A stretch of 50,977 bases of DNA from a virus: positions 1 to 50,977 of the IMG/VR virus record IMGVR_UViG_3300024278_000005. One strand, written 5' to 3'. A program made the translations under genes and the position numbers. Positions 4,334 to 35,362 of this stretch are shown here, one piece after another (positions within the stretch are counted from its first letter, which is position 1; each line of letters starts with the position of its first letter). The notes below the pieces were generated by a model that had not been told where the DNA came from, searched no databases, and saw only the letters and a program-made list of their open reading frames with translations.

Positions 4334-4383
4334 ACTATAAAGCCTAGCGCGTGGAATTGTCAACACTTCAGGGAAAATATTTT
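4334..4383 (-). promoter_or_regulatory. Promoter module 1
   Basis: On the minus strand: AAAATATTTT (4374-4383), TTGACA (4358-4363), a 17-bp spacer and TTATAG (4335-4340). It drives the 4067-4297 gene. It belongs to a family of about twelve such modules in the window. The spacer here carries a poor CCCTAGGG match. Confidence 0.8.
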
Positions 4384-4394
4384 TTAGCCGCGCT

Positions 4395-5150
4395 CTACAG
4401 GGAACCCTCAGGCAGTCCTAGGATGGCCGCGTAGGTGGGCAGAAGGGATGGGTCTTTGCCCTTGAGGTAGGTCACGAATTTATCGGGGCGGTAGGTCACG
4501 TTAAACCAATGGCGGTACTCAGGCAAAAGCTTATCCACATAGATATTGGCATCCACTACCCGCCCATCGGGGTAGAAGTGGCGATACTTGCGAATGAGTC
4601 CAGGGTCATCGGTATTACGCCCCGTAGCCCGCAGATGCTTGCAAAAGCACTTTCCCACGGAAATATCCGGTACTGCATTCCCCGGCAAGATAATGCCATG
4701 GTCTTCCAAGTCTCCCACCAGGGAGTTGTTCAGTTCCTCAAAGATGCAAAACCATCCCGTGGGAATCTTGGTTTTGCGGCGGAATAGCTTGAGCCGTTCA
4801 GTCCAGGCATAGGTGAAGGTGGGAGTTTGGAGTAGAGCCTTAGCCTTAGAAAAGGCTTGGACAAGTTCAAGTTTGCACTGCACCACCTCTGGGGTGTTGC
4901 GGCTCAGGCTCATGATGAACGTGGCCTGGTCTTCAGTTAGTAAGTAGTAGCGGATAACGGTTGCCCCTACTGCCCGTTTTCTCGTCTCTGTTTGAAACAG
5001 GAATAAGCCAAACGCTTGCTCTGCTTGGGTTTTGTACTTCTCGATGGTCTGCACAAGGTTGTCATGGCGGATCCCTAGCCGTTCGGCTACGAGTCGGGAA
5101 TCCACAACTAAGACATTGCCATTGCCACTGGGTACTCTGGTAATATTCAT
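4395..5150 (-). CDS. Rha-type phage regulatory (antirepressor-like) protein
   Basis: A 251-residue protein with two parts. The N-terminal part (about 1-105) matches the Rha family, with VVDSRLVAERLGIRHDNLVQ and a later YYLLTEDQATFIM-LSRNT segment. Such domains are found in phage antirepressors and lysis-lysogeny or host-interference regulators. The C-terminal part (about 113-251) is nearly the same as residues 118-256 of the BRO-type protein at 22219-22989 (shared KTKIP-GWF, PDISVGK-FCK, HFYPDGRVVDANIY, LGLPEGS). The frame is open to 5219, but that upstream ATG lies in a folded leader shared with the 9766 gene. ATG 5150, preceded by GAAGG, is therefore the chosen start. Confidence 0.8.
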   Translation of the reverse strand: MNITRVPSGNGNVLVVDSRLVAERLGIRHDNLVQTIEKYKTQAEQAFGLFLFQTETRKRAVGATVIRYYLLTEDQATFIMSLSRNTPEVVQCKLELVQAFSKAKALLQTPTFTYAWTERLKLFRRKTKIPTGWFCIFEELNNSLVGDLEDHGIILPGNAVPDISVGKCFCKHLRATGRNTDDPGLIRKYRHFYPDGRVVDANIYVDKLLPEYRHWFNVTYRPDKFVTYLKGKDPSLLPTYAAILGLPEGSL

Positions 5151-5243
5151 TTGGTTAGCCTTCGATACGGGTTGACTGCGGTGGTATTGCAAGCCTAGGG
5201 ATTTGCGTTCTCTAGGCATTGCGCCGCTTTATCTATTTTAGCA
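5151..5243 (-). promoter_or_regulatory. Promoter and structured leader RNA of the Rha gene
   Basis: An extended -10 TGCTAAAAT lies at 5235-5243 on the minus strand. Immediately downstream is a leader that aligns with the leader of the 9766 gene. Shared blocks are AAGCGGCGCAAT, a CCTAG...CTAGG stem enclosed by GCAA...TTGC, ACCGCAGT, and GAAGGC-AACCA before the ATG. The stems are kept although the loop sequences differ, which suggests an RNA structure. Confidence 0.6.
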
Positions 5244-5250
5244 CAGCAAT

Positions 5251-5272
5251 AAAAACCCCCATTGCTGGGGGC
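5251..5272 (-). terminator. Intrinsic terminator of the 5280-5525 gene
   Basis: On the minus strand CCCCC (from 5271-5267) pairs with GGGGG (5260-5256) around AGCAAT and is followed by TTTTT. Confidence 0.75.
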
Positions 5273-5279
5273 TGATGAT

Positions 5280-5525
5280 TTATACAAAGTAATCAGTAGG
5301 TGAGGATCCGATGTCCCCCTCCAGCCATTGATTGCAGGTGTCTGGGTCTAGGGCACCCAGTCGATGGATAATCCCCCATCGGATCTCAACCACGAAATCT
5401 TCCAAGAATCCCATGGTCTCACAGGTATCATGAATGGCGCACAGGGCTTGAGTATCATCCATGGTTTTAACAATAGATTTGATCCGGTTGGATTTCTTGA
5501 CTTGCTGGGTGGTAGTGAGTTTCAT
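5280..5525 (-). CDS. Hypothetical small protein
   Basis: An 81-residue protein starting at ATG 5525 (MKLTTTQQVKKSNRIKS). The frame is open further upstream to 5606, but that would place the start upstream of the promoter's -35. The chosen start lies just after the hairpin leader and in the AAAGCAATG context shared with other units. The basic N-terminus is followed by an acidic helical part (DDTQALCAIHDTCETMGFLE). The middle resembles small unknown proteins that contain a Cys pair. No family was recognised. It is a single-gene unit with its own promoter and terminator. Confidence 0.7.
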   Translation of the reverse strand: MKLTTTQQVKKSNRIKSIVKTMDDTQALCAIHDTCETMGFLEDFVVEIRWGIIHRLGALDPDTCNQWLEGDIGSSPTDYFV

Positions 5526-5541
5526 TGCTTTAGTTGGGTAT

Positions 5542-5615
5542 GGGGCTTTCCCCTTGCTGATTACTATATTTACATACCCTAGGGGAATTGTCAACACCCA
5601 AAGCAAAAATATTTT
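5542..5615 (-). promoter_or_regulatory. Promoter module 2 with leader hairpin
   Basis: On the minus strand: AAAATATTTT (5606-5615), TTGACA (5589-5594), a spacer with CCCCTAGGG, and an AT-rich -10 near 5565-5571. The transcript then carries GGGG-AAAG-CCCC (5542-5553). The upstream box directly abuts the TAA stop of the preceding gene. It drives the gene ending at 5280. Confidence 0.8.
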
Positions 5616-5984: not shown

Positions 5985-6020
5985 GTATCCTTAATGTAGT
6001 CATAGCAATGGAGTCAATAT

Positions 6021-6308: not shown

Positions 6309-6321
6309 GAGCTACTGTACC

Positions 6322-6483: not shown

Positions 6484-6857
6484 TGACACTTCAACCCATT
6501 GACCAGCCCTACATCTTTTCTGAGTCCGACATGGCTCGGCTCCAAAAAGTCTGTCAAGGCGGGGATGGCGACCTCATCATCTTTTCCATTCCCCTTTACG
6601 TTGAAGTTGCCCCCGTAGACCCCAGCCTGAACCTACCCCACCAAACCATCCCCTACCCCCGATTTATTGCCCTGCATTGGCTTTCTGGTGACATAGCGGG
6701 CACGGTTTCCACGGGTTCAGGGAATGGCTGGACTGTGCTAGGCACTTGGCACCATGCCCGGTTTACCGCTGATGATGCCAAGAATCTGGTGGGCGGGAAA
6801 GAGGCCATGATTCACACCCTTATCGACAATGGGTATCGGTGGGCTAACCCTGCCTAA
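6483..6857 (+). CDS. Hypothetical protein
   Basis: A 124-residue protein whose ATG overlaps the stop of the 53-residue gene, suggesting coupled translation. It contains a likely beta-rich core (DLIIFSIPLYVEVAPV, then RFIALHWLSGDIAGTV). A helical C-terminus follows (TADDAKNLVGGKEAMIHTLI). Its 3' end overlaps the convergent thymidylate synthase gene by 14 bp. No family was recognised. Confidence 0.65.
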   Translation: MTLQPIDQPYIFSESDMARLQKVCQGGDGDLIIFSIPLYVEVAPVDPSLNLPHQTIPYPRFIALHWLSGDIAGTVSTGSGNGWTVLGTWHHARFTADDAKNLVGGKEAMIHTLIDNGYRWANPA

Positions 6858-8274
6858 ACCCATCCCGTAGCAAGTGCGCCCGATGCACTTCGCCACCCAA
6901 GTAGGCCGCGTGTTCTGGTAGCATCCCAGGGCATTCGGCCATTATTTTTTTGAGCAAAGGCGTGGGAGCCTTGCCTGTCCATTGCCGGGTGGGGCTACCC
7001 TGGGGGCTGGTTTGGCTAACCCGGATTTCTTGGCCTACCCACTCCACAAGGAAATTGCCCACCGGGTCGCTGAAGTCGTTGGGAGCCTTATAGCGATCGC
7101 GGATCAGGGCATCGGCATTATCCCAGCAGTCATCATAGATGTGGGCGCTTTGGCTAATGGTGATTAATGGCCCCAATACCGTCGCCCCCTCCACCCGCTC
7201 AAAAATATGGCGCTGGAGTGCCCGCAATCCCATGGCGTTGGCTGGCCATGCGCTGAACATATCATTGGAGCGGAATAGCGCCGTGAGGGACAATTCCCCG
7301 GCTACCACCCGCACCCAAATATGATTGAGGCAGGGACTACCCCCGCGCTCATGGTCTAGCACATCCCACAGGGTCATCACGGCACTGGCCGCGTCAATTT
7401 CCTGGTTTAGCTTTTTGATGATCTGCTCAATCTGGTCTACCCCAAACCACGATCGCAACCGCTGACCATAGGTATATTTTACCCCTTCCTGCTTGGGGGC
7501 ATCCCCTAGGATTTGAGGGAGGTAGCCCTGGATAAAGGCAGGGTCACAGGGTAGGTAATTCGGCTCTGGAAAGTAAAAAGGTTCCGGCTCATCGGTCACC
7601 ACCGCCATCAGGTCAATCAATTCCTGCCAGTGCCCATCGTACCCCGTGGGGCGGATGGTGCCGGTGGTCTTAATGCGATGGATAATCTTGACCCAGGTTT
7701 CTGCCACGGTTTTCCCCTCAATCCGGTGCCCATAGCGTTGCCCTGGGAACACGCTAGGCAGGGGTTCTTTAACCGGAAACTCCAAGGGGCTGGGGTGCCA
7801 GGGGGAGCCACTGCTAGAGCCTAGGGCTTGGATAGTGCTGATCAGTTCCGCTTTATTGTTGCACCAGTGCAGGGTTACAGCCGTTCTAAGGCTAGTCAAA
7901 TACTCTAGGGGTATCTCAGGCTCAACATAGCCCGGAATCGCCCCCTGAATGACCCAGGCGGGCTGTCCCGTATCCGTCTGGCCTAGGGCAACCCCATGTT
8001 CCCAAAAGTCCCGCAGGCGGTGGCATCCTTGGGCGTTGGCATCTTCTCCCGTGGCACACAGCACCACCAAATCCAAAATCTGCGGGTTAGCCAAAAGATT
8101 GCGGCATAGGGTGCTGATGCCACGGGCGGGGCTGTAGAGTTGCCCGATCGCGGCATATTGGGAAGACTGGAGCCACCCGGCCACAGTTTTAGCCACCGTC
8201 CATCCGGTCACAATCACGGTGCTACCCGTGCCTAAGATTAGTTGATTGACTTTATAGCGTGGTGTGTATTGCAT
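6844..8274 (-). CDS. Thymidylate synthase, archaeal-type, with MtrA/DUF4346-like N-terminal domain
   Basis: A 476-residue protein in two parts. The C-terminal half carries folate-dependent thymidylate synthase hallmarks: a Cys motif SPCLNHIWVRV (Cys315 as the likely nucleophile), RSNDMF (335-340, phosphate-binding Arg and Ser/Asn/Asp), and SAHIYDDCW (376-384, the HxY that contacts dUMP). The usual GFNI-type Asn segment is replaced by PANAM. It would methylate dUMP to dTMP. The N-terminal part (about 12-125, with YAAIGQLYSPARGISTLCRN and LVVLCATGEDA) resembles the MtrA/DUF4346 domain that precedes archaeal and cyanobacterial synthases. The ATG at 8274 is the first in frame. With nrdJ it forms a dNTP-supply pair, although they are not in one operon. 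Confidence 0.82.
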   Translation of the reverse strand: MQYTPRYKVNQLILGTGSTVIVTGWTVAKTVAGWLQSSQYAAIGQLYSPARGISTLCRNLLANPQILDLVVLCATGEDANAQGCHRLRDFWEHGVALGQTDTGQPAWVIQGAIPGYVEPEIPLEYLTSLRTAVTLHWCNNKAELISTIQALGSSSGSPWHPSPLEFPVKEPLPSVFPGQRYGHRIEGKTVAETWVKIIHRIKTTGTIRPTGYDGHWQELIDLMAVVTDEPEPFYFPEPNYLPCDPAFIQGYLPQILGDAPKQEGVKYTYGQRLRSWFGVDQIEQIIKKLNQEIDAASAVMTLWDVLDHERGGSPCLNHIWVRVVAGELSLTALFRSNDMFSAWPANAMGLRALQRHIFERVEGATVLGPLITISQSAHIYDDCWDNADALIRDRYKAPNDFSDPVGNFLVEWVGQEIRVSQTSPQGSPTRQWTGKAPTPLLKKIMAECPGMLPEHAAYLGGEVHRAHLLRDGFRQG

Positions 8275-8328
8275 GGTTGGCTATAGTAGGGTTTCAGCCA
8301 TTACAAAATACAGCTTTTCATGGGCTTG

Positions 8329-8405
8329 AAAATATTTTTGCTTAAGGTGTTGACATTCCCACGGGATTAGGTTATATTAAGTACATAAGCAAAGGGGAGC
8401 GCCCC
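8329..8405 (+). promoter_or_regulatory. Promoter module 3 with leader hairpin
   Basis: AAAATATTTT (8329-8338), TTGACA (8350-8355), 17-bp spacer, TATATT (8373-8378), then the hairpin GGGG-AGCG-CCCC (8394-8405). The spacer has CCCACGGGA in the operator position, a variant of CCCTAGGG. It drives the 8422 gene. Confidence 0.85.
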
Positions 8406-8421: not shown

Positions 8422-8979
8422 ATGACTACATTCGTTACCCATAAAGAAGCCGCTAAAATCCTCTCCAACATGATCCCAGGCTCCAAGCCCTGGACAAAGA
8501 ATAAGCACGAAAGCCGGGTCTACCTAAACGGTGGCTACCTGGCAATCGAAGCCACTATGCGACAAGTCTGCCCCTGGCTTAAAGCAGGTCAGTATAGCCA
8601 AGTAGACCCCATTATCGAGCGGTTTACCAGTGAATACAAGGTAGTACAAGACAAAGCGCAAGCCCAGTCCCAAGCCCCCCGCAACAAAAAAACATCCGTG
8701 CGACTAACCTTCCAAACGGCGGATCGGCCTAGCCACACTATCGAGATTGAGCAGGTTTCCAGTATCCTCCCTGACATCTATGCTGACCATCAATTCGGTT
8801 TGCGGTTCATGCTTGAGGGTAAAGCCTTTGGGCTACATAAGTACCTTCCCCTCAGCGGCAAGGTTCTTGAGGAAACCTACCATCGGACATCCGAGCCGAT
8901 TAGCGGCCCCTTCAACCCTGACTTTCAATATGATGGCCATCAAATCTGGCTAATTAGCCGACTACTGCTAGCGGCATAA
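8422..8979 (+). CDS. Hypothetical protein
   Basis: A 185-residue protein starting at ATG 8422, after promoter module 3 and its leader hairpin. No Shine-Dalgarno is evident (ACCGAGCAAAAAA before the ATG). The N-terminal ~75 residues look helical (HKEAAKILSNMIPGSKPWTK). A Gln/Lys-rich linker follows, then a probable beta-rich C-terminal domain (SVRLTFQTADRPSHTIEIEQ). It is closed by its own intrinsic terminator, so it is a single-gene unit. No family was recognised. Confidence 0.75.
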   Translation: MTTFVTHKEAAKILSNMIPGSKPWTKNKHESRVYLNGGYLAIEATMRQVCPWLKAGQYSQVDPIIERFTSEYKVVQDKAQAQSQAPRNKKTSVRLTFQTADRPSHTIEIEQVSSILPDIYADHQFGLRFMLEGKAFGLHKYLPLSGKVLEETYHRTSEPISGPFNPDFQYDGHQIWLISRLLLAA

Positions 8980-8987
8980 CCTACTCC

Positions 8988-9012
8988 AAGCCCCCTAGAG
9001 GGGCTTTTTTTA
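8988..9012 (+). terminator. Intrinsic terminator
   Basis: AAGCCCC and GGGGCTT pair around CTAGA and are followed by seven T. It terminates the 8422-8979 gene just upstream of promoter module 4. Confidence 0.85.
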
Positions 9013-9019: not shown

Positions 9020-9069
9020 AAAATATTTTCCCTAAAGGTGTTGACATTTTCTAGGGGTTGGGTTATATT
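9020..9069 (+). promoter_or_regulatory. Promoter module 4
   Basis: AAAATATTTT (9020-9029), TTGACA (9041-9046), 17-bp spacer with TCTAGGGG, and TATATT (9064-9069). The leader lacks the GGGG-CCCC hairpin found in six other units. It drives the 9111 gene. Confidence 0.85.
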
Positions 9070-9110: not shown

Positions 9111-9386
9111 ATGGCTATCCGCAACTTCCCCATCATCCATGACCAAACCTTTGAAGTAGGGGAGACCTACATCGCAAAAAACAACACATCCTTTGCCATC
9201 AAGGTGACACGCCGCACCAAATGTTTCGTCTGGACTGAGCGCTATATTGACGGTGTTTATAACCCTTACTTTAAGGGAGATGCTAAATGCAAGATTCGGG
9301 TCATCGGTGGCCGTGAGTACATTGATGGGGGACTATTTGAGTATTACCCCGATAAAGTACCCCACGAACTCCTTTCTGTAGCGTAA
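9111..9386 (+). CDS. Hypothetical small protein
   Basis: A 91-residue protein starting at ATG 9111 in the context AACCCAAGCAATG. It looks like a small beta-rich domain with alternating hydrophobics (FEVGETYIAKNNTSFAIKVT, then KCFVWTERYIDGVYNPYFKG). It is the first gene after promoter module 4, followed by a hairpin without a T-tract (9393-9413) and the 9444 gene, so read-through between the two is likely. No family was recognised. Confidence 0.7.
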   Translation: MAIRNFPIIHDQTFEVGETYIAKNNTSFAIKVTRRTKCFVWTERYIDGVYNPYFKGDAKCKIRVIGGREYIDGGLFEYYPDKVPHELLSVA

Positions 9387-14258: not shown

Positions 14259-16916
14259 ATGGCCATCGTCCTCACTTTCCCGGATCCCGTCCCCGCTGGC
14301 ACCGGAAGCCCCGCCCCCCTTGGCACCGTAATTGGTTACGGTACCAGCGCTCCCCTTGCCAGCCTCACCCTATCCCAGGATCCGGCGCTAGCAACTACCG
14401 TTCCCATTCCCACCCCGGTAAACCCAGGGCAAACCCTCACCGTCACCCTGACCCCCCCGGAGGAATACGTCACCAGCCTCACGATCGCGGGGGTGCCCTA
14501 CAGCGATTACAGCTACAACCCGGCCACGGGGGTGCTGACAGTGCAGGTAACCCAGCCCCTCACCCTTGGCGACACCCTCACCTACACCGGGGTCACTGCT
14601 AGCCCTGCCTACCGTACCGACCTGCTACAGGAACGGCTCCCTGAACTGTTGACCGCGTGGAATGCCCATGGCACCGTGACCCTGCAACGGCAATTTGAGG
14701 GGCAACCCAGCGCCAGTATTGAGTTCACCACCCTACGCAGCAATGAAGCGGGGATCCGTAGCGCTTTCTTTTCAGGGCAACGGTTCAATCTATGGGGGAT
14801 GTTGTTTGTGTGTGACAGTGACCTCACGATTACCCGCCTCAGGAATTACACGGATCCGGGGGATGTGATTCAGGTATCCGTGACCCTTGGCGGGGCATGG
14901 GAGCCGAAGTCTAATGAGCCGGAAGTGCGGTTACTGGATGTAGGGCGGGTGGTGATTGCGGGTACTGAAAACTTTGAGGGAGAACGTGCCCTCAAAACGG
15001 GAAGCACTACCCTAGCCAAGCTTTTGCGCAAGCTAGATATTCCCTATGTCGGGCAAGGCTTCACTATTGATATTCCCGCTGACACACCCCTCACCACTGG
15101 AGTAGACCCCATCTCTCTGTTAACTGAACGCACCCGCAGTGCCCAAGGATTTGCCTTTTGGAGTAATCCCCTAGGGGCGGAAATTCGGCAATGGAATGGC
15201 ACCAGTGCCCATGGCCTGTCCATGGCGGATGTGCTATCAGAAATCCAGGTGAATTATGGCCTATGCCCCTACTACCGCAACACAGAATTGCAGTTAGACC
15301 GGGAAGAGGGGGACGCGGCGGAAGAGGCAAAAATCAATGAACGATGGACGATCGTGACGGGGGATGAAAATCCCGACAAAGTGCCACGGGTAGGAGCCAC
15401 CCGCTACAACACAGGAACCCCTATCAGCATCCGTAGCCCATCCATGGCCTTTGATGCCGGTGGCCCCGTAAAGGAAAGGGTTACTACAACCTACGTTAAT
15501 AGCACGGTAGTTGAGGAAAAGCGAGAAACCTATGGCTTCATGTTTACTAGCTTAGACGTGTGGCAACATTTCTCTAGCGTTAGCTACCCCCCACCGGGCG
15601 GCGGTACCCCAACCATCAATTCTTGGGGTGAATGGAAATACATGGGAGATGTGTTTTCACCCGTTTTTTGGAGTCCAGAACCCTACTGGCAACTGGTAGG
15701 GGAGTCCACGCTAGTCAATACCTATGATGAGGAAGGATATTTAACTGCCACGGAAACCACTGGGTGGAAATACAGCCGATTCCAACAGGAAGGGGATGGG
15801 AAGGAGTTACTGGAAATCCTGCGGGAATACACGGAGAACTACAACCCAACGAATGATCAAAACACCAATGCAGGGGAAGTCACACTGCGAATCCTTAACC
15901 GGATGATGGCTTATTCTTGGCGACGCACGGATACCACGGTATTCCTTTATCCCAGCAGCCTTAGCGCGGGATCCTCTTTGACTTACGAGATATTCCCCGC
16001 GCCCACATTGCGTTCCGACCTGCTACGCCTCCCTCAAAACGACTCCACAACCTACGAATTAGCCGATATGACCCGGTTCTACCCGGATGTGACCACAGAG
16101 GAAGGGGGCGTAGTGCCACGGTTTGCATGGAAAATCGAGCGTAGCCGCAATGAGTTCATTCAGGCTCCTAATCCCGATAGCACTGACGATGAACCCCTGC
16201 CACCCCTAACCACGGGGGAAGTCTACAGCGAAACTGAGATGGTGGGTGTGATTTTCCCCTTTGAGGGCATGAGCCAGAGTGAATGGGAGCCACGCAAGAA
16301 TGAAGAGCGGTTTATGGTGGAGTCCAAGCGCTCTAATGCGGAAGGGGCGGGACTGGACAACACTTTAGCGATCGGCACCAAAATCATCAACGCCGGTCGC
16401 CCATCGGTGCATGAGCGGCTAGAACTGTATGGAGAGGGGCGCGATGAGGAAGGGAACCTTGAGGGGGACACCCGCACAGAACCCCCCGCCGCTGACCTGG
16501 CATCGGCTCAACCAGAAGTAAGACTACTGATCAACTCTGGAGAAGCTACGGCGGTGGGATTTGGCTACCGCGCTCCCAACGATGACCTCACCCTACCGGA
16601 ATCAGGCAGTGTCAGCTATAAGGGCGCAGGAACCAAGGAAACCGCTTTATCGGCGGCTACGGTTGATGCTGCGATTCAGGCCACTGCTGCGGTAGAAGCC
16701 CTCACCCTCACCGTAGCCCCGACCCGCCGCTACCAGGAAGGTGACCGGGTGGTTTTTGAGGGGGTGTCTTACCGGGTCTGGAGTGTCACCGAACCCCGGC
16801 GCATTCAGGCAGGGCAACTGCGAACCGATGGCTGGCAGTTGGATTTGCGCCGTGAGTTTAACCCGCCTGTGGTGCTGTCAGAAGTGGATTCCGTTGCTAA
16901 GGAAGATGGGGGCTAA
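14259..16916 (+). CDS. Large tail or baseplate structural protein
   Basis: An 885-residue protein starting at ATG 14259. It opens with a Pro/Thr/Ala-rich beta-sandwich-like region (MAIVLTFPDPVPAGTGSPAP), typical of virion decoration. Mixed alpha/beta and long beta-rich regions follow. The middle (about 130-420) resembles phage tail-hub or baseplate assembly proteins in general character, and the C-terminus is rich in charged beta strands. No signal peptide or enzyme motif was found. Size, composition and the lone plus-strand position fit a virion component. The TAA stop lies inside the AAAATATTTT box of promoter module 5. Confidence 0.6.
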   Translation: MAIVLTFPDPVPAGTGSPAPLGTVIGYGTSAPLASLTLSQDPALATTVPIPTPVNPGQTLTVTLTPPEEYVTSLTIAGVPYSDYSYNPATGVLTVQVTQPLTLGDTLTYTGVTASPAYRTDLLQERLPELLTAWNAHGTVTLQRQFEGQPSASIEFTTLRSNEAGIRSAFFSGQRFNLWGMLFVCDSDLTITRLRNYTDPGDVIQVSVTLGGAWEPKSNEPEVRLLDVGRVVIAGTENFEGERALKTGSTTLAKLLRKLDIPYVGQGFTIDIPADTPLTTGVDPISLLTERTRSAQGFAFWSNPLGAEIRQWNGTSAHGLSMADVLSEIQVNYGLCPYYRNTELQLDREEGDAAEEAKINERWTIVTGDENPDKVPRVGATRYNTGTPISIRSPSMAFDAGGPVKERVTTTYVNSTVVEEKRETYGFMFTSLDVWQHFSSVSYPPPGGGTPTINSWGEWKYMGDVFSPVFWSPEPYWQLVGESTLVNTYDEEGYLTATETTGWKYSRFQQEGDGKELLEILREYTENYNPTNDQNTNAGEVTLRILNRMMAYSWRRTDTTVFLYPSSLSAGSSLTYEIFPAPTLRSDLLRLPQNDSTTYELADMTRFYPDVTTEEGGVVPRFAWKIERSRNEFIQAPNPDSTDDEPLPPLTTGEVYSETEMVGVIFPFEGMSQSEWEPRKNEERFMVESKRSNAEGAGLDNTLAIGTKIINAGRPSVHERLELYGEGRDEEGNLEGDTRTEPPAADLASAQPEVRLLINSGEATAVGFGYRAPNDDLTLPESGSVSYKGAGTKETALSAATVDAAIQATAAVEALTLTVAPTRRYQEGDRVVFEGVSYRVWSVTEPRRIQAGQLRTDGWQLDLRREFNPPVVLSEVDSVAKEDGG

Positions 16917-16990
16917 AAATATTTTGCTTAGGGTGTTGACATTTGCAGTAGCTAGGCTTTATAGTGGTAAACAGCAAAGGGGAACGCCCC
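16916..16990 (+). promoter_or_regulatory. Promoter module 5 with leader hairpin
   Basis: AAAATATTTT (16916-16925), TTGACA (16936-16941), 17-bp spacer, TTATAG (16959-16964), then GGGG-AACG-CCCC (16979-16990). It drives the 17009 gene. Confidence 0.8.
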
Positions 16991-17008: not shown

Positions 17009-17281
17009 ATGAACCGCAAAGCCGCTATCAACCGCCGCAACCGCCAATTTTCCCTGCACTGCCAAACCCTGACGCTGAACCCCGAACAGCGCCTTCACCT
17101 AGGCAAGATTGGTTCTGTCCCAATTGAGGAAACCTGCCTAGCCAAGGGCTGGGTAGGAGAGGGCTTTCGATGGGCAGCATACCTGCCCGTAGCCATGTCC
17201 CCAGAAGAGGGACAGGCTATCCAGGAAGCCTTGACCAGCCGACTGGGTACCGATGACTGGGGGTATGACACGCCCCAATAA
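17009..17281 (+). CDS. Hypothetical small protein
   Basis: A 90-residue protein starting at ATG 17009. An in-frame upstream start would lie in the promoter. A three-codon ORF (MKS) begins at 17001, exactly where the leader architecture places the start in sibling units, and its TGA overlaps this ATG. This may be a tiny upstream ORF or a shifted start. The product is basic at the N-terminus (MNRKAAINRRNRQFSLHCQ). No family was recognised. An intrinsic terminator follows, so it is a single-gene unit. Confidence 0.65.
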   Translation: MNRKAAINRRNRQFSLHCQTLTLNPEQRLHLGKIGSVPIEETCLAKGWVGEGFRWAAYLPVAMSPEEGQAIQEALTSRLGTDDWGYDTPQ

Positions 17282-17302: not shown

Positions 17303-17327
17303 TAGCCCCTCCCTTGAGGGGCTTTTT
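17303..17327 (+). terminator. Intrinsic terminator
   Basis: AGCCCC and GGGGCT pair around TCCCTTGA, followed by six T. It ends the 17009-17281 unit. Confidence 0.8.
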
Positions 17328-19685: not shown

Positions 19686-19731
19686 ATAAAAAAGCCCCTG
19701 GGGTAGTTCCTAGGGGCTTTTTGCTTTTAGG
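19686..19731. repeat. 46-bp repeat, copy 1, containing a bidirectional terminator
   Basis: AAAAAAGCCCC pairs with GGGGCTTTTT, so the hairpin has a T-tract in both directions. It terminates nrdJ on the plus strand and the 19727-20113 gene on the minus strand. The same 46 bp recur at 20204-20249, and the repeat runs into the stop codon of the minus-strand gene. Confidence 0.85.
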
Positions 19732-20113
19732 CCATGCCGTATTTTTTCATAACCTCAAGACAGGCTTTGCTCTCTTTGGCGTATCGTTCACGCTTTTTAT
19801 GCTCACCTTCTTTGTCGGTAATGGGGGTTGCCCAACCTACCATTTTGCCCTCCCCGTTATAAAAGTACCAGCGTTTCATGCTGGTATTCCATTCGTAATG
19901 GGCATCTTCATCCCCCTGGAGACCTAGAAAGCTAGCAACTTCCGAGCCATTATTGACGATGGCATGAGATGCCCACTTTTTGGCCTTCGATGCCACGCGC
20001 CCGACATCTAGGGCATGATTAGGATCAAGGGAGGAAAGGCCATGGGCTTTGGCTTCGGTTTCGGTGATTTGCGCTTCGGTGGTGTTTTTAAAGATGACCA
20101 GGTTAATTAGCAC
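19727..20113 (-). CDS. Hypothetical protein
   Basis: A 128-residue protein starting at GTG 20113 (MLINLVIFKNTTEAQ). The frame is open to 20179, but that start would lie in the promoter spacer. AAGG lies upstream of the GTG. The product is charged and partly helical, with GEGKMVGWATPITDKEGE near the C-terminus. No family was recognised. It is the first of two cassette-like units that share promoter, leader and terminator. Confidence 0.7.
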   Translation of the reverse strand: MLINLVIFKNTTEAQITETEAKAHGLSSLDPNHALDVGRVASKAKKWASHAIVNNGSEVASFLGLQGDEDAHYEWNTSMKRWYFYNGEGKMVGWATPITDKEGEHKKRERYAKESKACLEVMKKYGMA

Positions 20114-20196
20114 TGCCTTTATCCTTTTGCTTGGGTTGATATGATTATTATAAGCCCTATCCCTAAGAACTGTCAACACACTAGGAAAAATATTTT
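20114..20196 (-). promoter_or_regulatory. Promoter module 6
   Basis: On the minus strand: AAAATATTTT (20187-20196), TTGACA (20171-20176), 17-bp spacer, TTATAA (20148-20153). The leader (ATCATATCAACCCAAG-AAAAGGAT) is nearly identical to that of module 7. It drives the 19727-20113 gene. Confidence 0.85.
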
Positions 20197-20203: not shown

Positions 20204-20249
20204 ATAAAAAAGCCCCTGGGGTAGTTCCTAGGGGCTTTTTGCTTTTAGG
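20204..20249. repeat. 46-bp repeat, copy 2, containing a bidirectional terminator
   Basis: Identical over 46 bp to 19686-19731. It terminates the 20257-20442 gene on the minus strand and abuts the promoter box of module 6. A third, partial copy of its left arm lies at 20529-20545. Confidence 0.85.
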
Positions 20250-20256: not shown

Positions 20257-20442
20257 CTAGATTTCAGCGTTGGATTCAAACCAACCAATTCCCATGATCG
20301 AGATAACGCTGATCTCTAAATACTTCATTTCATCATTAATCACTTGGATTTGGTGGGCATTCCCCCATGCGTCATCAAGAGCCGCTACTAATTGGTTGTA
20401 TTTGTTCATCAGGGAGACTGCGTGTTGGGTAGCTGCGTTCAT
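20257..20442 (-). CDS. Hypothetical small protein
   Basis: A 61-residue protein starting at ATG 20442, with AAGGAT upstream. It reads MNAATQHAVSLMNKYNQLVA and is predicted helical. Unrelated to the 19727-20113 product, yet flanked by the same promoter, leader and terminator sequences. No family was recognised. Confidence 0.7.
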   Translation of the reverse strand: MNAATQHAVSLMNKYNQLVAALDDAWGNAHQIQVINDEMKYLEISVISIMGIGWFESNAEI

Positions 20443-20475
20443 GGGAAGATCCTTTTACTTGGGTTGATATGATTA

Positions 20476-20525
20476 CTATAAACCCAGCCCCTAGGAATTG
20501 TCAACACCCCTAGGGAAAATATTTT
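20476..20525 (-). promoter_or_regulatory. Promoter module 7
   Basis: On the minus strand: AAAATATTTT (20516-20525), TTGACA (20499-20504), spacer with TTCCTAGGGG, TTATAG (20476-20481). CCCTAGGGG also lies just upstream of the -35. It drives the 20257-20442 gene. Confidence 0.85.
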
Positions 20526-20533: not shown

Positions 20534-20557
20534 TAAAAAAGCCCCTAGGGAGGGGCT
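20534..20557 (-). terminator. Intrinsic terminator
   Basis: On the minus strand AGCCCCT pairs with AGGGGCT and is followed by six T. It ends the 20564-21171 minus-strand operon and abuts promoter module 7. Confidence 0.8.
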
Positions 20558-20563: not shown

Positions 20564-20785
20564 CTAAAACGGTGTAATCAAGCCCATGGCCGCAAGGCAC
20601 AGGATGTTGAGGTCATGGGATTCTGTGGTGCAGTGGGGATTCTCTAACCGCCAATAGCCCTCAGGAATCCACTCTAGGGTAGTATTGCCACAAACCCACT
20701 TGCGCCCATCCTTGACCCAGGATGCTTGCCCTAGGACGGGATGGCTCAGTAATTCATGGTTGGTGATCTGCGGGGGTCTAGTCAT
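20564..20785 (-). CDS. Hypothetical small protein
   Basis: A 73-residue protein starting at ATG 20785, overlapping the end of the upstream gene by 8 nt. It has a Trp-rich middle (ASWVKDGRKWVCGNTTLEWI, then YWRLENPHC). It is the third gene of a three-gene minus-strand operon. No family was recognised. Confidence 0.65.
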   Translation of the reverse strand: MTRPPQITNHELLSHPVLGQASWVKDGRKWVCGNTTLEWIPEGYWRLENPHCTTESHDLNILCLAAMGLITPF

Positions 20786-21002
20786 GGCTCTCGATCCCCG
20801 CTAGGCTGATCAGGGCATCGTCTAGGGTTTTGCCTGTGCCCTGGTGTCCCTGGGCTTCGATAACCCAGTCCTGAGAGGGCACCAGATAGGTGAGGGTACC
20901 CCAGTGACTGGTCATCACTTCAGCATCGGGGACAGCACAGAACCGCCATTGGTATTGGCGGAGGAAGGGGTGGCGATGCACCAGCATGAAGGGTTTAGTC
21001 AT
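20778..21002 (-). CDS. Hypothetical small protein
   Basis: A 74-residue protein starting at ATG 21002, overlapping the stop of the upstream gene by 8 nt. It begins MTKPFMLVHRHPFLRQYQWR and ends in a helix (TGKTLDDALISLAGIESHD). It resembles its downstream neighbour in having a Trp-rich beta core. No family was recognised. Confidence 0.65.
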   Translation of the reverse strand: MTKPFMLVHRHPFLRQYQWRFCAVPDAEVMTSHWGTLTYLVPSQDWVIEAQGHQGTGKTLDDALISLAGIESHD

Positions 21003-21171
21003 GGCTCACACCCCCTTGCACCCATTGGATACCACGGTTGAGCCGCGCAAACTGACGCACGGCACGGGGTTTAGCCGTGGGTAGGGTGATGACAACTTTT
21101 TCCCCATTACGATCTCCCACCATTAGGGCGCTGCGGGGGTTTTGTACGGTTAGGTTTTTCATGGGCTTCAT
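20995..21171 (-). CDS. Hypothetical small basic protein
   Basis: A 58-residue protein. The frame is open to a GTG at 21201, but that codon lies in the promoter spacer, so the start is probably ATG 21171 (MKPMKNLTVQNPRSALMVGD). AAGGA lies about 14 nt upstream. It is basic, with an Arg-rich end (KPRAVRQFARLNRGIQWV). It is first in a minus-strand operon. No family was recognised. Confidence 0.65.
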   Translation of the reverse strand: MKPMKNLTVQNPRSALMVGDRNGEKVVITLPTAKPRAVRQFARLNRGIQWVQGGVSHD

Positions 21172-21189
21172 TGCTGCGAGACTTTCCTT

Positions 21190-21280
21190 ACAGTAAAGCA
21201 CCCCAAAATAATTGTCAACTATAGGGGGTTGACATTCCCTAGGGATTATGGTCTAATAATAAATGTAAGGGGATAGCCCC
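21190..21280. promoter_or_regulatory. Divergent promoters (modules 8 and 9)
   Basis: The minus-strand promoter has TTGACA (21213-21218), a 17-bp spacer and TACTGT (21190-21195). The plus-strand one has TTGACA (21229-21234), a 17-bp spacer containing TTCCCTAGGGATT, and TCTAAT (21252-21257). Its leader has GGGG-ATAG-CCCC (21269-21280). The two -35 boxes are only 10 bp apart. Neither has the AAAATATTTT box. Confidence 0.75.
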
Positions 21281-21297: not shown

Positions 21298-21564
21298 ATG
21301 TTAACGATTCAGAAGATCCAAGATCTAACAGACGAGATCCGCCGTCATCACCGCCATGACAGCGCCGATGACGGCGGTATCATCATCGCCATTCTTCCTG
21401 GCGATGACGAGATTTTAGGGGCAGGCCAATGGCTTGTTCCAGTCCGGCATCTACTGCCTTCCTGGGGGAAGGAGTATTTTTATGACTTCATTCCCCCTGG
21501 ATGGGAAGAATGGGCAGAAAGTGACTACCCCTACTCCGATTATCTCATCGGAGAGTGGTTTTAG
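21298..21564 (+). CDS. Hypothetical small acidic protein
   Basis: An 88-residue acidic protein starting at ATG 21298, in the CCAAGCAAATG context with no Shine-Dalgarno. It has a His/Asp-rich loop (RRHHRHDSADDGGIIIAILP) and an acidic Trp/Tyr-rich C-terminus (PPGWEEWAESDYPYSDYLIG), which might bind a protein partner or mimic DNA. No family was recognised. It is a single-gene unit with its own terminator. Confidence 0.7.
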   Translation: MLTIQKIQDLTDEIRRHHRHDSADDGGIIIAILPGDDEILGAGQWLVPVRHLLPSWGKEYFYDFIPPGWEEWAESDYPYSDYLIGEWF

Positions 21565-21567: not shown

Positions 21568-21595
21568 TTAGCCCCCTACCCTGGGGGCTTTTTTG
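21568..21595 (+). terminator. Intrinsic terminator
   Basis: AGCCCCC pairs with GGGGGCT around TACCCT, followed by six T. It ends the 21298-21564 unit. Confidence 0.85.
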
Positions 21596-21601: not shown

Positions 21602-21674
21602 AAAATATTTTAGGGATAAGTGTTGACATTCCCTAGGGAATATGGTTTACTAATAAATGTAAGGGGAAAGCCCC
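21602..21674 (+). promoter_or_regulatory. Promoter module 10 with leader hairpin
   Basis: AAAATATTTT (21602-21611), TTGACA (21623-21628), spacer with TTCCCTAGGGAA, a weak -10 near 21646-21653, then GGGG-AAAG-CCCC (21663-21674). It drives the 21691 gene. Its -10 to leader region aligns closely with module 9. Confidence 0.8.
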
Positions 21675-21690: not shown

Positions 21691-22098
21691 ATGACCTGCT
21701 ACAACACTTTAATGATTGACCGCTACACTGATAACCGCGATGAGAGGGAACCTGAGCCAGAAGACATGAACTCCCCTGAGCGCCAACAGCTACGGCGCAT
21801 TTTGGGGGTTTGGGTTGTTTTCCACGGTCGGGACAGCATTATCCCTGATCTGCGGGAAATGTTTGGGTGGAATATCCTTTTGACCACGGAGGACACCCGC
21901 GCTACTAACCGCTACTTTGCGGCGCTGATTACCCCGACTGAAGGGGAGCTAGATCCCTGGTGGATTTGGGGACACAAAGACACCCTGCAACGCTGGGGGC
22001 TGGATACCATCCTTCAGGAATTGCAGTCTTTTGGGTTGCACCTACGCAAGCAACACCCCGACCCCTTAATGCGCCCGATGCCAGGGGAAGACTTCTAG
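21691..22098 (+). CDS. Hypothetical protein
   Basis: A 135-residue protein starting at ATG 21691. The N-terminus is charged and possibly disordered (DNRDEREPEPEDMNSPERQQ). It is followed by a hydrophobic and Trp-rich core (GVWVVFHGRDSIIPDL, then DPWWIWGHKDTLQRWG). No family was recognised. It has its own promoter module and terminator. Confidence 0.7.
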   Translation: MTCYNTLMIDRYTDNRDEREPEPEDMNSPERQQLRRILGVWVVFHGRDSIIPDLREMFGWNILLTTEDTRATNRYFAALITPTEGELDPWWIWGHKDTLQRWGLDTILQELQSFGLHLRKQHPDPLMRPMPGEDF

Positions 22099-22118: not shown

Positions 22119-22144
22119 GCCCCCGCCCTAGGGGGCTTTTTTTA
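22119..22144 (+). terminator. Intrinsic terminator
   Basis: GCCCCC pairs with GGGGGC around GCCCTA, followed by seven T. It ends the 21691-22098 unit. Confidence 0.85.
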
Positions 22145-24142: not shown

Positions 24143-24400
24143 CTACATTGCAGAGACTTTAGCTATCCCTTGCTGGACTAGGGCGGGAACATCAGCGAGG
24201 GGGTGCCAGTCGTAGCGGCTTTGCCGGGTTTCTTCCGTGTTGTGCCCAATGGGGGCAAGCAACACCACGCGGGCTTCTTGACTCAGGATGTCTACCATGA
24301 CAGCCCCCCCATTTTCTAGATTGACTTGAAACATAGACCAGCCTAGATGGCGGGTTTCGTAGGCTTGGGTGATGGTTTGAATTAGCTCTTGAGTAGTCAT
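24143..24400 (-). CDS. Hypothetical small protein
   Basis: An 85-residue protein starting at ATG 24400. It has a helical N-terminus (TTQELIQTITQAYETRHLGW) and a beta core (FQVNLENGGAVMVDILSQEA). Driven by promoter module 11 and followed by a terminator, so it is a single-gene unit. No family was recognised. Confidence 0.7.
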   Translation of the reverse strand: MTTQELIQTITQAYETRHLGWSMFQVNLENGGAVMVDILSQEARVVLLAPIGHNTEETRQSRYDWHPLADVPALVQQGIAKVSAM

Positions 24401-24432: not shown

Positions 24433-24481
24433 ATTAGACCATACTCCCTAGGGATTGTCAACACCCCTAGGGGAAATATTT
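24433..24481 (-). promoter_or_regulatory. Promoter module 11
   Basis: On the minus strand: AAATATTT (24474-24481), CCCCTAGGGG upstream, TTGACA (24456-24461), spacer with ATCCCTAGGGAG, and TCTAAT (24433-24438). It drives the 24143-24400 gene. Confidence 0.8.
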
Positions 24482-24489
24482 CTAGCCAC

Positions 24490-27598: not shown

Positions 27599-28753
27599 TC
27601 AATAGGGGCGGGCGTAAATAGAAGGATCCATCGCGGGCATAGCCGCAAACATACTGGAAACCGGGGGGCAATAACCCGATTCAATGGCACGGGACATCAC
27701 GGCATTGACCACATCCCGGCCATAGAACATCCGATGGTAGCTGTCAGGGTAAAATTCATCCGCGATCGCCTGTACTTTCTTATCAAACTCAACGTAGGTC
27801 AACCCACTATCAAAAAACTCAGACATCCGCTCCCATGCGACCTCGATGTTATGTGCCCGCAGTTCCGCCACGTCCATGGGCTTGGCAGGCATCTCCACAG
27901 CCTTGCGGGACTCCACAAAGGCAAACCATTCCCCGGTTACCTTGCCGATGTTGTTCTGGCTAATAATCCAGGTCATGAGCCGCCATAGTTCGTCCCCATC
28001 TAGGTTCCGCTTGGTGCGGAGCAGGTTGGCCACAAAGGAAGAAAACTCAGCTTGCTCATCCGTGGACTTCCATGGGGCGGGGGCTGGGGGGCTGGGGGGG
28101 GTAGGGGGGGTCAATTTTTCGGCGGGCGCGGGGCCATTTAAATTTTTCTGTGATCTCTCCGATCGTTTTATAGGTTTTGGCTTTTGATCAACAGGAGAAA
28201 TAATCTCTGGGATCCCCGGTTCTTGAAAATTAGAAAAAGTCGCCGTCGCCTCTACTACTTCTTTTTCTTTTATTTCAGTCTTTATTAGATCAGTCTTTAT
28301 TGGGGGGTGCTTTTCCAGGTGTGGAAAATCGAGATCTGGGTTAGAAAAAAAAGGCGGTATAGGGGCTTGACAAATTGGCGCGGGTGTTGTATTTTTAGCG
28401 GCCTTTGCCTTTTTTTCTTTTTTGGCTTTTGCGGGTTGAGCGAACCCCTGGGGCTGGCGGAAGACTTGAGCCTGCCATCTGTACACCTGCCCAAGCGAAT
28501 CTACCAGACGCTCCTTTACCAGATAGCCCGCCCGGTACAACTCTTCTAACCCACTCTGAATAGAGGCAACCCCATCAGCACTCATCTTGGCTAACGATTC
28601 AGCCGTGAACTGGTATTTGCCCCCGCCCTTCATACTCAGGATTGCACCGATCAAGCCTTTCGCTTTCCAGGACAACGCCTCATCATAAAAGATTCCATTA
28701 TTGACGATAGTGTAGTCTTGCGTGGGAAGCGGATCCATGTGTACAATGTACAT
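27599..28753 (-). CDS. Phage replication initiator-like protein (winged helix)
   Basis: A 384-residue protein starting at ATG 28753, with AAGGATG 8 nt upstream. The N-terminal ~95 residues are a winged-helix domain (TIVNNGIFYDEALSWKAKG, FTAESLAKMS, LEELYRAGYLVKERLV), as in phage and plasmid initiators and DnaD-like proteins. A Lys/Ala-rich linker follows, then PDLDFPHLEKHPPIKTDLIK (139-158). A long Pro-rich linker is encoded by G-tracts. The C-terminal domain (about 230-384) is helical and may bind the helicase or primase. Its first codons contain the palindrome TGTACA-A-TGTACA. A decayed partial copy lies at 808-1032. Confidence 0.75.
   Translation of the reverse strand: MYIVHMDPLPTQDYTIVNNGIFYDEALSWKAKGLIGAILSMKGGGKYQFTAESLAKMSADGVASIQSGLEELYRAGYLVKERLVDSLGQVYRWQAQVFRQPQGFAQPAKAKKEKKAKAAKNTTPAPICQAPIPPFFSNPDLDFPHLEKHPPIKTDLIKTEIKEKEVVEATATFSNFQEPGIPEIISPVDQKPKPIKRSERSQKNLNGPAPAEKLTPPTPPSPPAPAPWKSTDEQAEFSSFVANLLRTKRNLDGDELWRLMTWIISQNNIGKVTGEWFAFVESRKAVEMPAKPMDVAELRAHNIEVAWERMSEFFDSGLTYVEFDKKVQAIADEFYPDSYHRMFYGRDVVNAVMSRAIESGYCPPVSSMFAAMPAMDPSIYARPY
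28265..28345. repeat. Copy 2 of the ~75-bp segment shared with 905-985
   Basis: It lies inside the initiator coding sequence. The TTTTCCA-n4-TGTGGAAAA-like core (at about 28312-28327) and TCGAGATCTGG match copy 1. Phage initiators often bind origins inside their own gene, so this may be a functional DNA site. Confidence 0.65.
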
Positions 28754-33268: not shown

Positions 33269-33440
33269 CCCTGTCCTCTTTTTTGCCACAGGTGTCTGTA
33301 TAGGCAAAATGATAATGCCTACAGAACCCGTTACCACCTACCCCTCTCTTGAATACCAGAATCAAGACCCCCAGACTTTCTATTCCTCATTCATCGTTAT
33401 CCCCAATGAAGCGCAACAAAACCAAGAAGCGTCAATCTAA
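33237..33440 (+). CDS. Hypothetical small protein
   Basis: A 67-residue protein starting at ATG 33237, overlapping the upstream gene by 32 nt. It has a basic start and a short hydrophobic stretch (PVLFFATGVCIGKMIMP), possibly membrane-associated. It overlaps the next gene by 35 nt. No family was recognised. Confidence 0.55.
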   Translation: MKPSKSKRPGNPVLFFATGVCIGKMIMPTEPVTTYPSLEYQNQDPQTFYSSFIVIPNEAQQNQEASI

Positions 33441-34080
33441 CTCCCTGACCGCCATCCGACTCGCCCAATTCCTGATCATACTTTTGTGCTTTGGCGTGGC
33501 ATACCTTGGGATTCAGCCTTACCTAAAACTAATCCTTCACATAGCCCCAGATCCCCAGGAAATGGTCACCGCTTTTTTACTGCGGATCCCCCCGGTGAGA
33601 TGGCTGATGGATTCCGTGGGCTACCTGCTTTGCCTTGTTCCAGCCGTTGCGCTTTGGGCAATGGTACAGGTTGCCGAGTTGCTTCCTAGCCTGATTGAGA
33701 CCGACCAGCAAAACATCCGCCACACCGTAGAGCAGTACCGCCAAGCCGCTGGAGCCAACTTTATTGAGGAACGGGAAGAGGATCCAGAGCTAATCAAGGC
33801 TCTTATCGATACCTTCAACAGCCTTCCCATCGCGTGGCTCCAAACCCTCTACAACTACCGCGCCGGGGCATTTATTCTAGACCTAGTGGTGACCGTTGCC
33901 GCCTATCCCCCCATTAAGGTGGGAGCATGGCAATTCCTCACCCGCCCTGCTTTTGAGGATGTCCACTGGCTCAACTTGACCATCACCCTGTCCTGCGTGT
34001 TTTTGATTGAGCAAACCCTAAAGCTTTTCCGGCACCTTGCCGCCGGTAACGTAATCCTCACCAACTTGGAGCCACAATAA
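33406..34080 (+). CDS. Polytopic membrane protein
   Basis: A 224-residue protein starting at ATG 33406 (MKRNKTKKRQSNSLTAIRLA). The frame is open further upstream, but that overlaps other genes. Three or four transmembrane segments are visible, for example FLIILLCFGVAYLGIQPYLK, LLCLVPAVALWAMVQVAEL, and LTITLSCVFLIEQTLKLF. Its stop overlaps the ATPase start (TAATG). It may form a membrane complex with the ATPase. Confidence 0.7.
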   Translation: MKRNKTKKRQSNSLTAIRLAQFLIILLCFGVAYLGIQPYLKLILHIAPDPQEMVTAFLLRIPPVRWLMDSVGYLLCLVPAVALWAMVQVAELLPSLIETDQQNIRHTVEQYRQAAGANFIEEREEDPELIKALIDTFNSLPIAWLQTLYNYRAGAFILDLVVTVAAYPPIKVGAWQFLTRPAFEDVHWLNLTITLSCVFLIEQTLKLFRHLAAGNVILTNLEPQ

Positions 34081-35249
34081 TGCAAGACACCAGACAGCTA
34101 GACCCCACCCCTATCCTCGCTGGAGCCGCTGCGGTGGGCTTTCTAGGGTTTGTCCTCACTGGGGGTGGTGTGGCAGGAATCCTGACTCTAGCCGGGGCGG
34201 CTATGGGGGGGCTAGGGTTAGCAGAGCGCCAGTCCACTAAAGCTAGAGCCATGCTCGCCCCCGCCCATCAGCCCCAAGTGCTTCCCTTCACAGCGTGGGT
34301 ACCCACGCCGGATCCCACAGTCAACATCAATTTCGCCCCGCAGATGACCCAAAGCGTGGAAACCACAGTGATGGTCAGCCCTGCTACCACCATTGCTACC
34401 CCTGTTACCGCTGTTAGCACAGGCCGGGGTAATAGCCTAGCCCAAGTTTCCCTGACTACCACCGCCCCCGTGGATGTCACAGAAGTTATTGCGGGAGCCT
34501 ACCAAAACGACCCCCAGTTCCCCGGTCATTTGCTGCTAGCGGCTCCGAGTGGTAGTGGCAAAACGACATTCCTGAGAGCCATGATCCGGCGATTAGTGGA
34601 GGGGAATGAGCTTGTGGCTATCTTTGTGTCAGACCCCAAAGGTACCGCGTGGCCACTACCCCCCGCAAACATTACCCGTATTTCTCATCCTACCCAGCCC
34701 GTTATCGCCCCCCTGGTTAGCCAACTCAAAGCCCTGGTCAATATCTTGGGTCAGCGCATCCAAGCCCGTGAAGCCACGGGGCAACCCACTACCGATTCCC
34801 GAATCATCTTCATTATTGATGAGTGGCTTTTGACCCTGGAAAAAGCTGACCAGGAAGGGCTTAGAAAAGACCTTGTTTCTTTGGTCAAGGCAATTATCCT
34901 CACCGGGCGAGAAGACAAGGTTCATGTCTGGGTTGTGGGGCAAAGCCATCAGGCTCAAGACATTGGGGGCAAAGACGTTAGCACCAGTATCCGCCAAAGT
35001 CTAGGAATTGTTTGCCTAGGCCATGGCACGGGGGTGGATGCAATCCACAAGGCCATCGGTGACCCCTACCTTGTCCCCACCGCTTTGAGACCCCAACTCC
35101 AGCAATCCCTAGCCCAGTGCAGCACCCAAACCGCTACCCCCATCTGCTATACCAACATTGGAGGGCACCGCGTCACTCCCTTGCCAGACCTGCGGGAATT
35201 TGTGCAGTGGTCAGCCGCAGACCCAGATTATGAAATACCATTGGACTAG
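34080..35249 (+). CDS. FtsK/HerA-like P-loop ATPase with membrane anchor
   Basis: A 389-residue protein. The N-terminus has two hydrophobic stretches (TPILAGAAAVGFLGFVLTGG, then VAGILTLAGAAMGGLGLA). The ATPase domain has Walker A APSGSGKTT (residues ~155-163), a Walker B IIFIIDEW (~243-250) and a following Arg/His-rich segment (WVVGQSHQAQDIGG). The layout fits DNA-translocating or secretion-type ATPases such as FtsK, TraD or HerA. With its membrane-protein operon it could drive DNA transfer, segregation or a virion-related step, and specific function is unknown. A terminator follows. Confidence 0.75.
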   Translation: MQDTRQLDPTPILAGAAAVGFLGFVLTGGGVAGILTLAGAAMGGLGLAERQSTKARAMLAPAHQPQVLPFTAWVPTPDPTVNINFAPQMTQSVETTVMVSPATTIATPVTAVSTGRGNSLAQVSLTTTAPVDVTEVIAGAYQNDPQFPGHLLLAAPSGSGKTTFLRAMIRRLVEGNELVAIFVSDPKGTAWPLPPANITRISHPTQPVIAPLVSQLKALVNILGQRIQAREATGQPTTDSRIIFIIDEWLLTLEKADQEGLRKDLVSLVKAIILTGREDKVHVWVVGQSHQAQDIGGKDVSTSIRQSLGIVCLGHGTGVDAIHKAIGDPYLVPTALRPQLQQSLAQCSTQTATPICYTNIGGHRVTPLPDLREFVQWSAADPDYEIPLD

Positions 35250-35257
35250 CATTCATC

Positions 35258-35278
35258 GCCCCGCCTAGGGGCTTTTTT
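35258..35278 (+). terminator. Intrinsic terminator
   Basis: GCCCC pairs with GGGGC around GCCTA, followed by six T. It ends the ATPase operon just before promoter module 12. Confidence 0.8.
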
Positions 35279-35286
35279 ATTGACTG

Positions 35287-35362
35287 AAAATATTTTTGCC
35301 TAGGGTGTTGATATTCCCTAGGGATAGGACTTAATATAGTAGATAGCAAAGGGGAAAGCCCC
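35287..35362 (+). promoter_or_regulatory. Promoter module 12 with leader hairpin
   Basis: AAAATATTTT (35287-35296), TTGATA (35308-35313), spacer with TTCCCTAGGGAT, TTAATA (35331-35336), then GGGG-AAAG-CCCC (35351-35362). It drives the 35380 gene. Confidence 0.85.

Follow-up and report, generated by a model that had tools for sequence, protein, structure and literature searches.

The stretch analysed here is a 50,977-base virus record, IMGVR_UViG_3300024278_000005 (the window), which may be a fragment and represents most of an uncultured phage. Dispersed over positions 4334 to 35,340 are short promoter-like modules, each standing before a small orphan gene. Their general plan is a terminator, the box AAAATATTTT, 10–11 bp, TTGACA, a spacer, a −10 hexamer, a short leader, the orphan gene and a second terminator. 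We argue that an uncultured cyanophage is here likely to be reiterating a host sigma-A promoter of the ribosomal RNA (rRNA) type, within a terminator–promoter cassette placed before orphan genes. The original prediction listed twelve near-identical modules, and the sites concerned are as follows.

Module 4363 (−), 4334–4383: box 4374–4383; TTGACA 4358–4363; 18-bp spacer; TATAGT 4334–4339; 76-residue orphan, 4067–4297.
Module 5594 (−), 5563–5615: box 5606–5615; TTGACA 5589–5594; CCCTAGGG 5577–5584; 20-bp spacer; TATAGT 5563–5568; leader hairpin at about 5542–5553; 81-residue orphan, 5280–5525.
Module 8350 (+), 8329–8378: box 8329–8338; TTGACA 8350–8355; 17-bp spacer; TATATT 8373–8378; leader AAGGGGAGCGCCCC; 185-residue orphan, 8422–8979.
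Module 9041 (+), 9020–9069: terminator 8988–9006 directly 5′; box 9020–9029; TTGACA 9041–9046; TATATT 9064–9069; 91-residue orphan, 9111–9386.
Module 16936 (+), 16916–16965: box 16916–16925; TTGACA 16936–16941; 18-bp spacer; TATAGT 16960–16965; 90-residue orphan, 17009–17281; terminator 17304–17323.
Module 20176 (−), 20147–20196: terminator directly 5′; box 20187–20196; TTGACA 20171–20176; 18-bp spacer; TATAAT 20147–20152; 128-residue orphan with a GTG start, 19727–20113.
Module 20504 (−), 20475–20525: terminator 20540–20557 on the 5′ side; box 20516–20525; CCCTAGGG 20508–20515; TTGACA 20499–20504; 18-bp spacer; TATAGT 20475–20480; 61-residue orphan, 20257–20442.
Site 21218 (−), 21189–21218, the twelfth module of the original list: promoter-like; faces an orphan operon (20995–21162, 20778–21002, 20564–20785).
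Module 21229 (+), 21229–21257: no upstream (UP) box; GGGTTGACA; CCCTAGGG 21237–21244; TGG-TCTAAT, a TGn extended −10, with the hexamer at 21252–21257; 88-residue orphan, 21298–21564.
Module 21623 (+), 21602–21651: terminator 21570–21589 on the 5′ side; box 21602–21611; TTGACA 21623–21628; CCCTAGGG 21631–21638; −10-like TTTACT 21646–21651; 135-residue orphan, 21691–22098; terminator 22119–22136.
Module 24461 (−), 24433–24482: terminator on the 5′ side; imperfect box GAAATATTTC 24473–24482; CCCTAGGG 24465–24472 and 24446–24453; TTGACA 24456–24461; TGG-TCTAAT, hexamer 24433–24438; 85-residue orphan, 24143–24400.
Module 35308 (+), 35287–35340: terminator on the 5′ side; box 35287–35296; TTGATA 35308–35313; CCCTAGGG 35316–35323; −10 region TTAATATAGT 35331–35340; leader AAGGGGAAAGCCCC; 60-residue orphan, 35380–35562.

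Eleven of the twelve sites form one sharply separated family. A profile covering the −35 hexamer, the spacer and the −10 hexamer (positions −4 to +32) was scored over 101,884 genome positions, and gave these eleven 34.2–46.8 bits, site 21218 23.3 bits and the best other genome site 11.2 bits. In leave-one-out scoring, each of the eleven stays within the top 12 positions, and site 21218 ranks 16th. The check proposed with the original prediction, a motif model scanned over the phage genome, led to the same answer: a model built from ten modules recovers the eleven with E values of 4e-22 to 1e-8, nothing else at E ≤ 1, and not site 21218. This site has little in common with the others beyond TTGACA and is an ordinary divergent promoter rather than a member of the family. 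It lies back-to-back with module 21229, their −35 boxes a few base pairs apart, and both lack the A/T box because divergent −35 elements leave no space for it. The box had been described as missing from these two sites only, which is correct except that the copy in module 24461 is imperfect.

The box is present in ten of the eleven modules, at a fixed distance from the −35 element. AAAATATTTT occurs ten times in the window against an expectation of 0.06, and nine of these copies stand 10–11 bp 5′ of TTGACA or TTGATA; the tenth, at 826–835, has no promoter at the usual distance. The spacer is more variable than the 17 bp first reported: five modules have this length, another four or five have 18 bp, and in module 5594 TATAGT follows after 20 bp. 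Six modules match the TTGACA/TATAAT hexamers at 11 or 12 of 12 positions, module 20176 perfectly so (TTGACA-18-TATAAT, 12/12), and the matches of the others are weaker.

A GC-rich stem followed by a T-run lies directly 5′ of six of the eleven modules, with the T-run beginning at −34 to −36 before TTGACA, and a similar structure follows ten of the eleven module genes, within 24–45 nt in nine cases. The original description of a single small gene without recognised function, followed by a terminator, therefore stands; the upstream terminator is a feature beyond it, as is a leader, AAGGGGANNGCCCC, common to six modules. Leaders, counted from the expected start to the initiation codon (ATG or GTG), span 25–37 nt. 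The AAGGGGANNGCCCC hairpin was considered as a structured RNA and set aside, its fold energies being inside the range of shuffled sequences; since its stem is invariant, a covariation test is impossible. No comparable leader was met in a pattern scan of viral contigs, and no family was matched in an Rfam search of the window. The module-driven proteins are 60–185 residues long; they gave no match in a Pfam search and PHROG matches that are marginal at best, and no Pfam or PHROG family is common to them, a result that concerns family assignments, no direct protein-to-protein comparison having been made.

Neighbouring modules are the most alike (0.84 for 20176 and 20504; 0.82–0.90 among 21229, 21623 and 24461; 0.76 for 8350 and 9041), a pattern suggesting that the cassette has been copied locally. 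Identical terminators (AAAAGCCCCTAGGAACTACCCCAGGGGCTTTTTTAT) at 19695–19730 and about 20205–20235 flank the 128-residue orphan at 19727–20113, and this pair is a trace of cassette copying. New copies would arise locally by duplication or recombination and then diverge.

In the modules, the box runs from −56 or −55 to −47 or −46. This is where the distal UP element of E. coli promoters lies. UP elements are placed between −40 and −60 in PMC2988021. A search of public collections for AAAATATTTT-N(5–10)-GTGTTGACA returned 100 viral and 115 genomic occurrences, in which the gap peaks at 7 (7–8 in the window modules) and a −10 hexamer matching at no fewer than five of six positions follows exactly 17 bp on in 35 of the viral and 64 of the genomic cases. 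Because the box, its spacing and the −35 element (box-N7-GTGTTGACA-17-TATAAT) recur in unrelated phages and bacteria, we take the box to be part of a general strong-promoter design, and a phage-specific regulator of AAAATATTTT is ruled out on the same ground. The box is best read as a putative distal UP element, and the −35 and −10 hexamers as those of a predicted sigma-A promoter. What sets the window apart is number, as it holds nine boxes at the right distance and exact copies number one or two in most of the phages sampled. The modules had been proposed to form a single regulon under one DNA-binding regulator. With near-identical promoters before the orphans, the module genes are probably expressed together; for the box, −35 and −10, however, no regulator is needed.

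The phage is probably one of a cyanobacterium. We treat the window as a cyanophage on three grounds: an excess of the HIP1 octamer GCGATCGC (13 copies against 1 expected); a thymidylate synthase fused to the pterin-binding domain DUF4346, which we take to be a cyanobacterial domain (6844–8274, minus strand); and a large protein, encoded at 14259–16916, whose annotated phage relatives are solely in Nodularia and Planktothrix phages. The thymidylate synthase–DUF4346 fusion has no full-length match among annotated phages. The terminase is 37–46% identical to those of the Acidovorax AP1, Bordetella BPP-1, Aphanizomenon CL131 and Planktothrix PaV-LD phages, its relatives of the BPP-1, AP1 and CL131 types all being below 46% identity, and a search for near relatives of the phage found none. 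In an AT-rich stretch at 28300–28450 there is one promoter-like site, with TTGACA at 28367; the stretch overlaps or adjoins a helix-turn-helix (HTH) replication-initiator-like gene (27599–28753) and could be a control region or an origin.

When the module model was applied to 386 cyanobacterial genomes, no multicopy family was found and several of the best matches proved to be rRNA-operon (16S) promoters. The 20-mer core GTTGACATTCCCTAGGGAAT has seven matches at two or fewer mismatches in these genomes; the only two with a single mismatch are both 16S promoters of one genome. Among 46 cyanobacterial 16S loci (196 kb), 15 score, and every match lies 128–252 bp 5′ of the 16S gene on the same strand. 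As part of this set had been reached through model matches, the test was repeated on 30 loci picked by 16S alone: eight of these score, compared with one of 44 control loci from Bacillales-like and gamma-like orders (Fisher p = 0.0025). The resemblance can be resolved into blocks. For the box block there is resemblance to the rRNA promoters of each of the three groups (z 3.7–6.2). The spacer block, in contrast, gives z = 4.6 against cyanobacterial rRNA spacers (eleven modules, unbiased set) and 1.3 and −1.2 against the two other orders; with one module per subfamily z is 3.5, reached in 1 of 4000 shuffles. The spacer similarity, including CCTAGGG, thus appears to be specific to the rRNA promoters of cyanobacteria. 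The modules have the consensus spacer TTTCCTAGGGATTGGG and the full rRNA set has TTTCCAGGGAGGTTGG; in the closest single case, in the genome with the two single-mismatch matches, TTGACATTCTCTAGGGAATTAGCTACATTAG 5′ of a 16S gene compares with TTGACATTCCCTAGGGAATATGGTTTACTAA at 21623.

In common with cyanobacterial rrn promoters, the modules have an A-tract/T-tract box 10–11 bp 5′ of TTGACA, GGG or GTG ahead of the −35 element, a 17-bp spacer with a TTCCnnGGGA-like motif and a −10 of the TAnATT type. They differ in being reiterated eleven times, often after a terminator, in using AAAATATTTT and CCCTAGGG more uniformly, and in driving small protein genes and no rRNA operon; the module works like an rrn promoter without being one. 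Several of the cyanobacterial 16S upstream regions (L377–L439) have a perfect or imperfect dyad in the 17-bp spacer, for example AACTCTGGGGAGAGTT (L407), TCTTCAAAGAAGA (L377) and TTCTCTAGGGAA (L419), and our literature search found no description of a spacer motif conserved among the rRNA promoters of cyanobacteria.

We therefore favour, as the likely explanation, a cassette built on a sigma-A promoter of host type, of the sort that drives cyanobacterial rRNA operons, its spacer carrying the TTCCnnGGGA motif, often as CCCTAGGG, as these promoters do. The box would be bound as a distal UP element by the carboxy-terminal domain of the alpha subunit (alpha-CTD) of host RNA polymerase. On entry of the DNA the host polymerase would load on the modules as on rRNA promoters, and initiation could then take place at all of them without any phage protein; the orphan genes can probably be switched on by host machinery alone. 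Each would be made strongly as an isolated unit, kept independent of its neighbours by the upstream terminator. Promoter activity and strength, early timing, alpha-CTD binding and a response to host rRNA control are what we infer from the sequence.

Several observations weigh against this interpretation. Many of the genome-wide matches in cyanobacteria lie away from 16S genes, so strong cyanobacterial promoters in general could have a spacer of this rRNA-like kind. Of the rRNA promoters found, the nearest agrees with the closest module at only 31 of 43 positions. The spacers of modules 4363, 8350, 16936 and 20176 are without CCTAGG, the −10 boxes of two modules are poor, and module 5594 requires a 20-bp spacer. 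Finally, the biased set gave a suggestive likeness of the leaders to those of rRNA promoters (z 2.5), which was dropped when the unbiased set yielded a non-significant 1.0–1.4.

The spacer palindrome bears on the first of the alternatives. CCCTAGGG is found 18 times in the window where 2.1 copies are expected, which rules out chance. As had been noted, it lies in several spacers: it is perfect in five (21229, 21623, 24461, 35308 and, shifted by 2, 5594), CCTAGG is present in a sixth (20504) and just CTAGGGG in 9041, and in three or four modules a second CCTAGG stands 18–19 bp 5′ of the spacer copy. It is not, however, a signal confined to the modules, since eight of the 18 copies are in coding sequence, against 1.5 expected when synonymous codons are shuffled. 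By the same measure other palindromes are also in excess in the genes (CCATGG, 64 versus 26; GGATCC, 48 versus 24; GCGATCGC, 12 versus 2.7; CTAG, 260 versus 168), and part of the CCCTAGGG signal is thus a genome-wide palindrome habit, possibly a host signature. The spacer motif is uncommon in phages at large, as a scan of viral contigs for TTGACANTYCCTAGGGR gave just 10 stretches.

CCCTAGGG, together with the CCTAGG-like site about 19 bp 5′ and before the −35 element, could be the operator through which a phage repressor or activator governs all the modules, as with P1 C1 or the mycobacteriophage L5 repressor. We regard this as unlikely, if the most credible of the alternatives. It would account for the perfect spacer dyads and the paired upstream sites, and Rha- and BRO-type phage proteins are encoded in the window. 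Moreover, phages of the same plan carry dyads of their own at a fixed place in the spacer: GTCCCTAGGGAC twice in G002, GTATCAGGATAC in G008 and GTTTAA-N7-TTAAAC in L343/L089. The 34,198-base record IMGVR_UViG_3300043442_001260 (G020) has four dispersed promoters, near 7697, 15729, 19632 and 30314, three of them on the AAAATATTTT plan, with the spacer dyad CGTTAGGTAACG exact in three and GTTAGATAAC in one; as the dyad survives at 19632, where the box has decayed, G020 is the better candidate for an operator regulon. In the HIP1-bearing, 98,464-base record IMGVR_UViG_3300049629_001293 there are several dispersed rRNA-like promoters (AAAAAAAAAGTTTT...TTGACATTTCCTAGGGTATC), one reading AAAAAAAAAGTTTTAAAAACCCC-TTGACA-TTTCCTAGGGTATCAGT-TATAGT and two with TTCCTAGGG in the spacer. 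Since same-plan phages each have their own spacer dyad, an operator may be laid on top of an rRNA-type promoter. Against an operator at every module stand the spacers without CCTAGG, the coding-sequence excess, the presence of the motif in cyanobacterial rRNA spacers too and the absence of a recognised repressor or integrase among the proteins searched, which gave just Rha, BRO-N and weak HTH matches. CCCTAGGG may act as an operator, but the rRNA-type promoter does not require it to.

The C1 operators of P1 are likewise copies of one short motif, scattered over the genome of a phage in association with promoters. The repressor sites of L5-type phages (stoperators) share this dispersed, promoter-linked character; they are, however, asymmetric and stop elongation (PMC6550527, PMC9283540), whereas the window motif is palindromic, missing from some modules and unaccompanied by an identified repressor.

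That the modules are ordinary strong sigma-A promoters which reached their form by convergence and have no special relation to rRNA promoters seems doubtful to us; the same box, spacing and −35 element do occur in unrelated phages and bacteria, but the spacer and the region from box to −35 are a better fit to the rRNA promoters of cyanobacteria than to those of either other order. Least probable is a mobile, PeSL-like shuffling cassette whose copies stay alike as recombination homology for swapping orphan genes, expression being a by-product: the composite terminator–promoter layout, the orphan cargo, the likeness of neighbours and the identical terminators at about 19.7 and 20.2 kb are in keeping with it, but the search for close relatives brought up none that carries these modules with exchanged genes, and the conserved positions are exactly those read by RNA polymerase.

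That an uncultured cyanophage should reiterate an rRNA-type promoter of cyanobacteria, spacer motif included, is new. The claim that the modules have no described counterpart was nevertheless too strong, as two systems of T4-type phages appear to be close functional counterparts. The 'uber' early promoters of T4, with UP, −35, TGn and −10 elements (PMC2988021), are likewise many host-sigma promoters with an UP element, a strong −35, TGn in some copies, extra conserved positions and small genes; they belong to another phage type and host, the available text describes no rRNA-promoter spacer motif, and early timing is only a prediction for the modules. PeSL promoter–terminator cassettes (Arbiol 2010 and Comeau 2014, as cited in PMC4503421) similarly place a composite terminator and early promoter between orphan genes, with the same proviso as to timing; they differ in belonging to T4-type phages, which the window phage does not appear to be by its terminase relatives, and the upstream terminator is clear here in six of eleven modules.

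A spacer motif conserved among the rRNA promoters of cyanobacteria emerges from the comparison. A speculative extension, to which we give little credence, is that the dyad is a true control site of these promoters, recognised either by RNA polymerase itself or by a host factor not yet described, and that several cyanophages copy it and so wire orphan takeover genes to the growth-rate control of ribosome synthesis. The modules also provide compact terminator–promoter parts for cyanobacteria, predicted to be very strong. If our interpretation is right, the candidate early orphan genes of a phage could be listed from sequence through its reiterated promoters of the rRNA type, and it would become a testable question whether takeover by the phage is subject to the host's control of rRNA, through light, nutrients and guanosine tetraphosphate (ppGpp).

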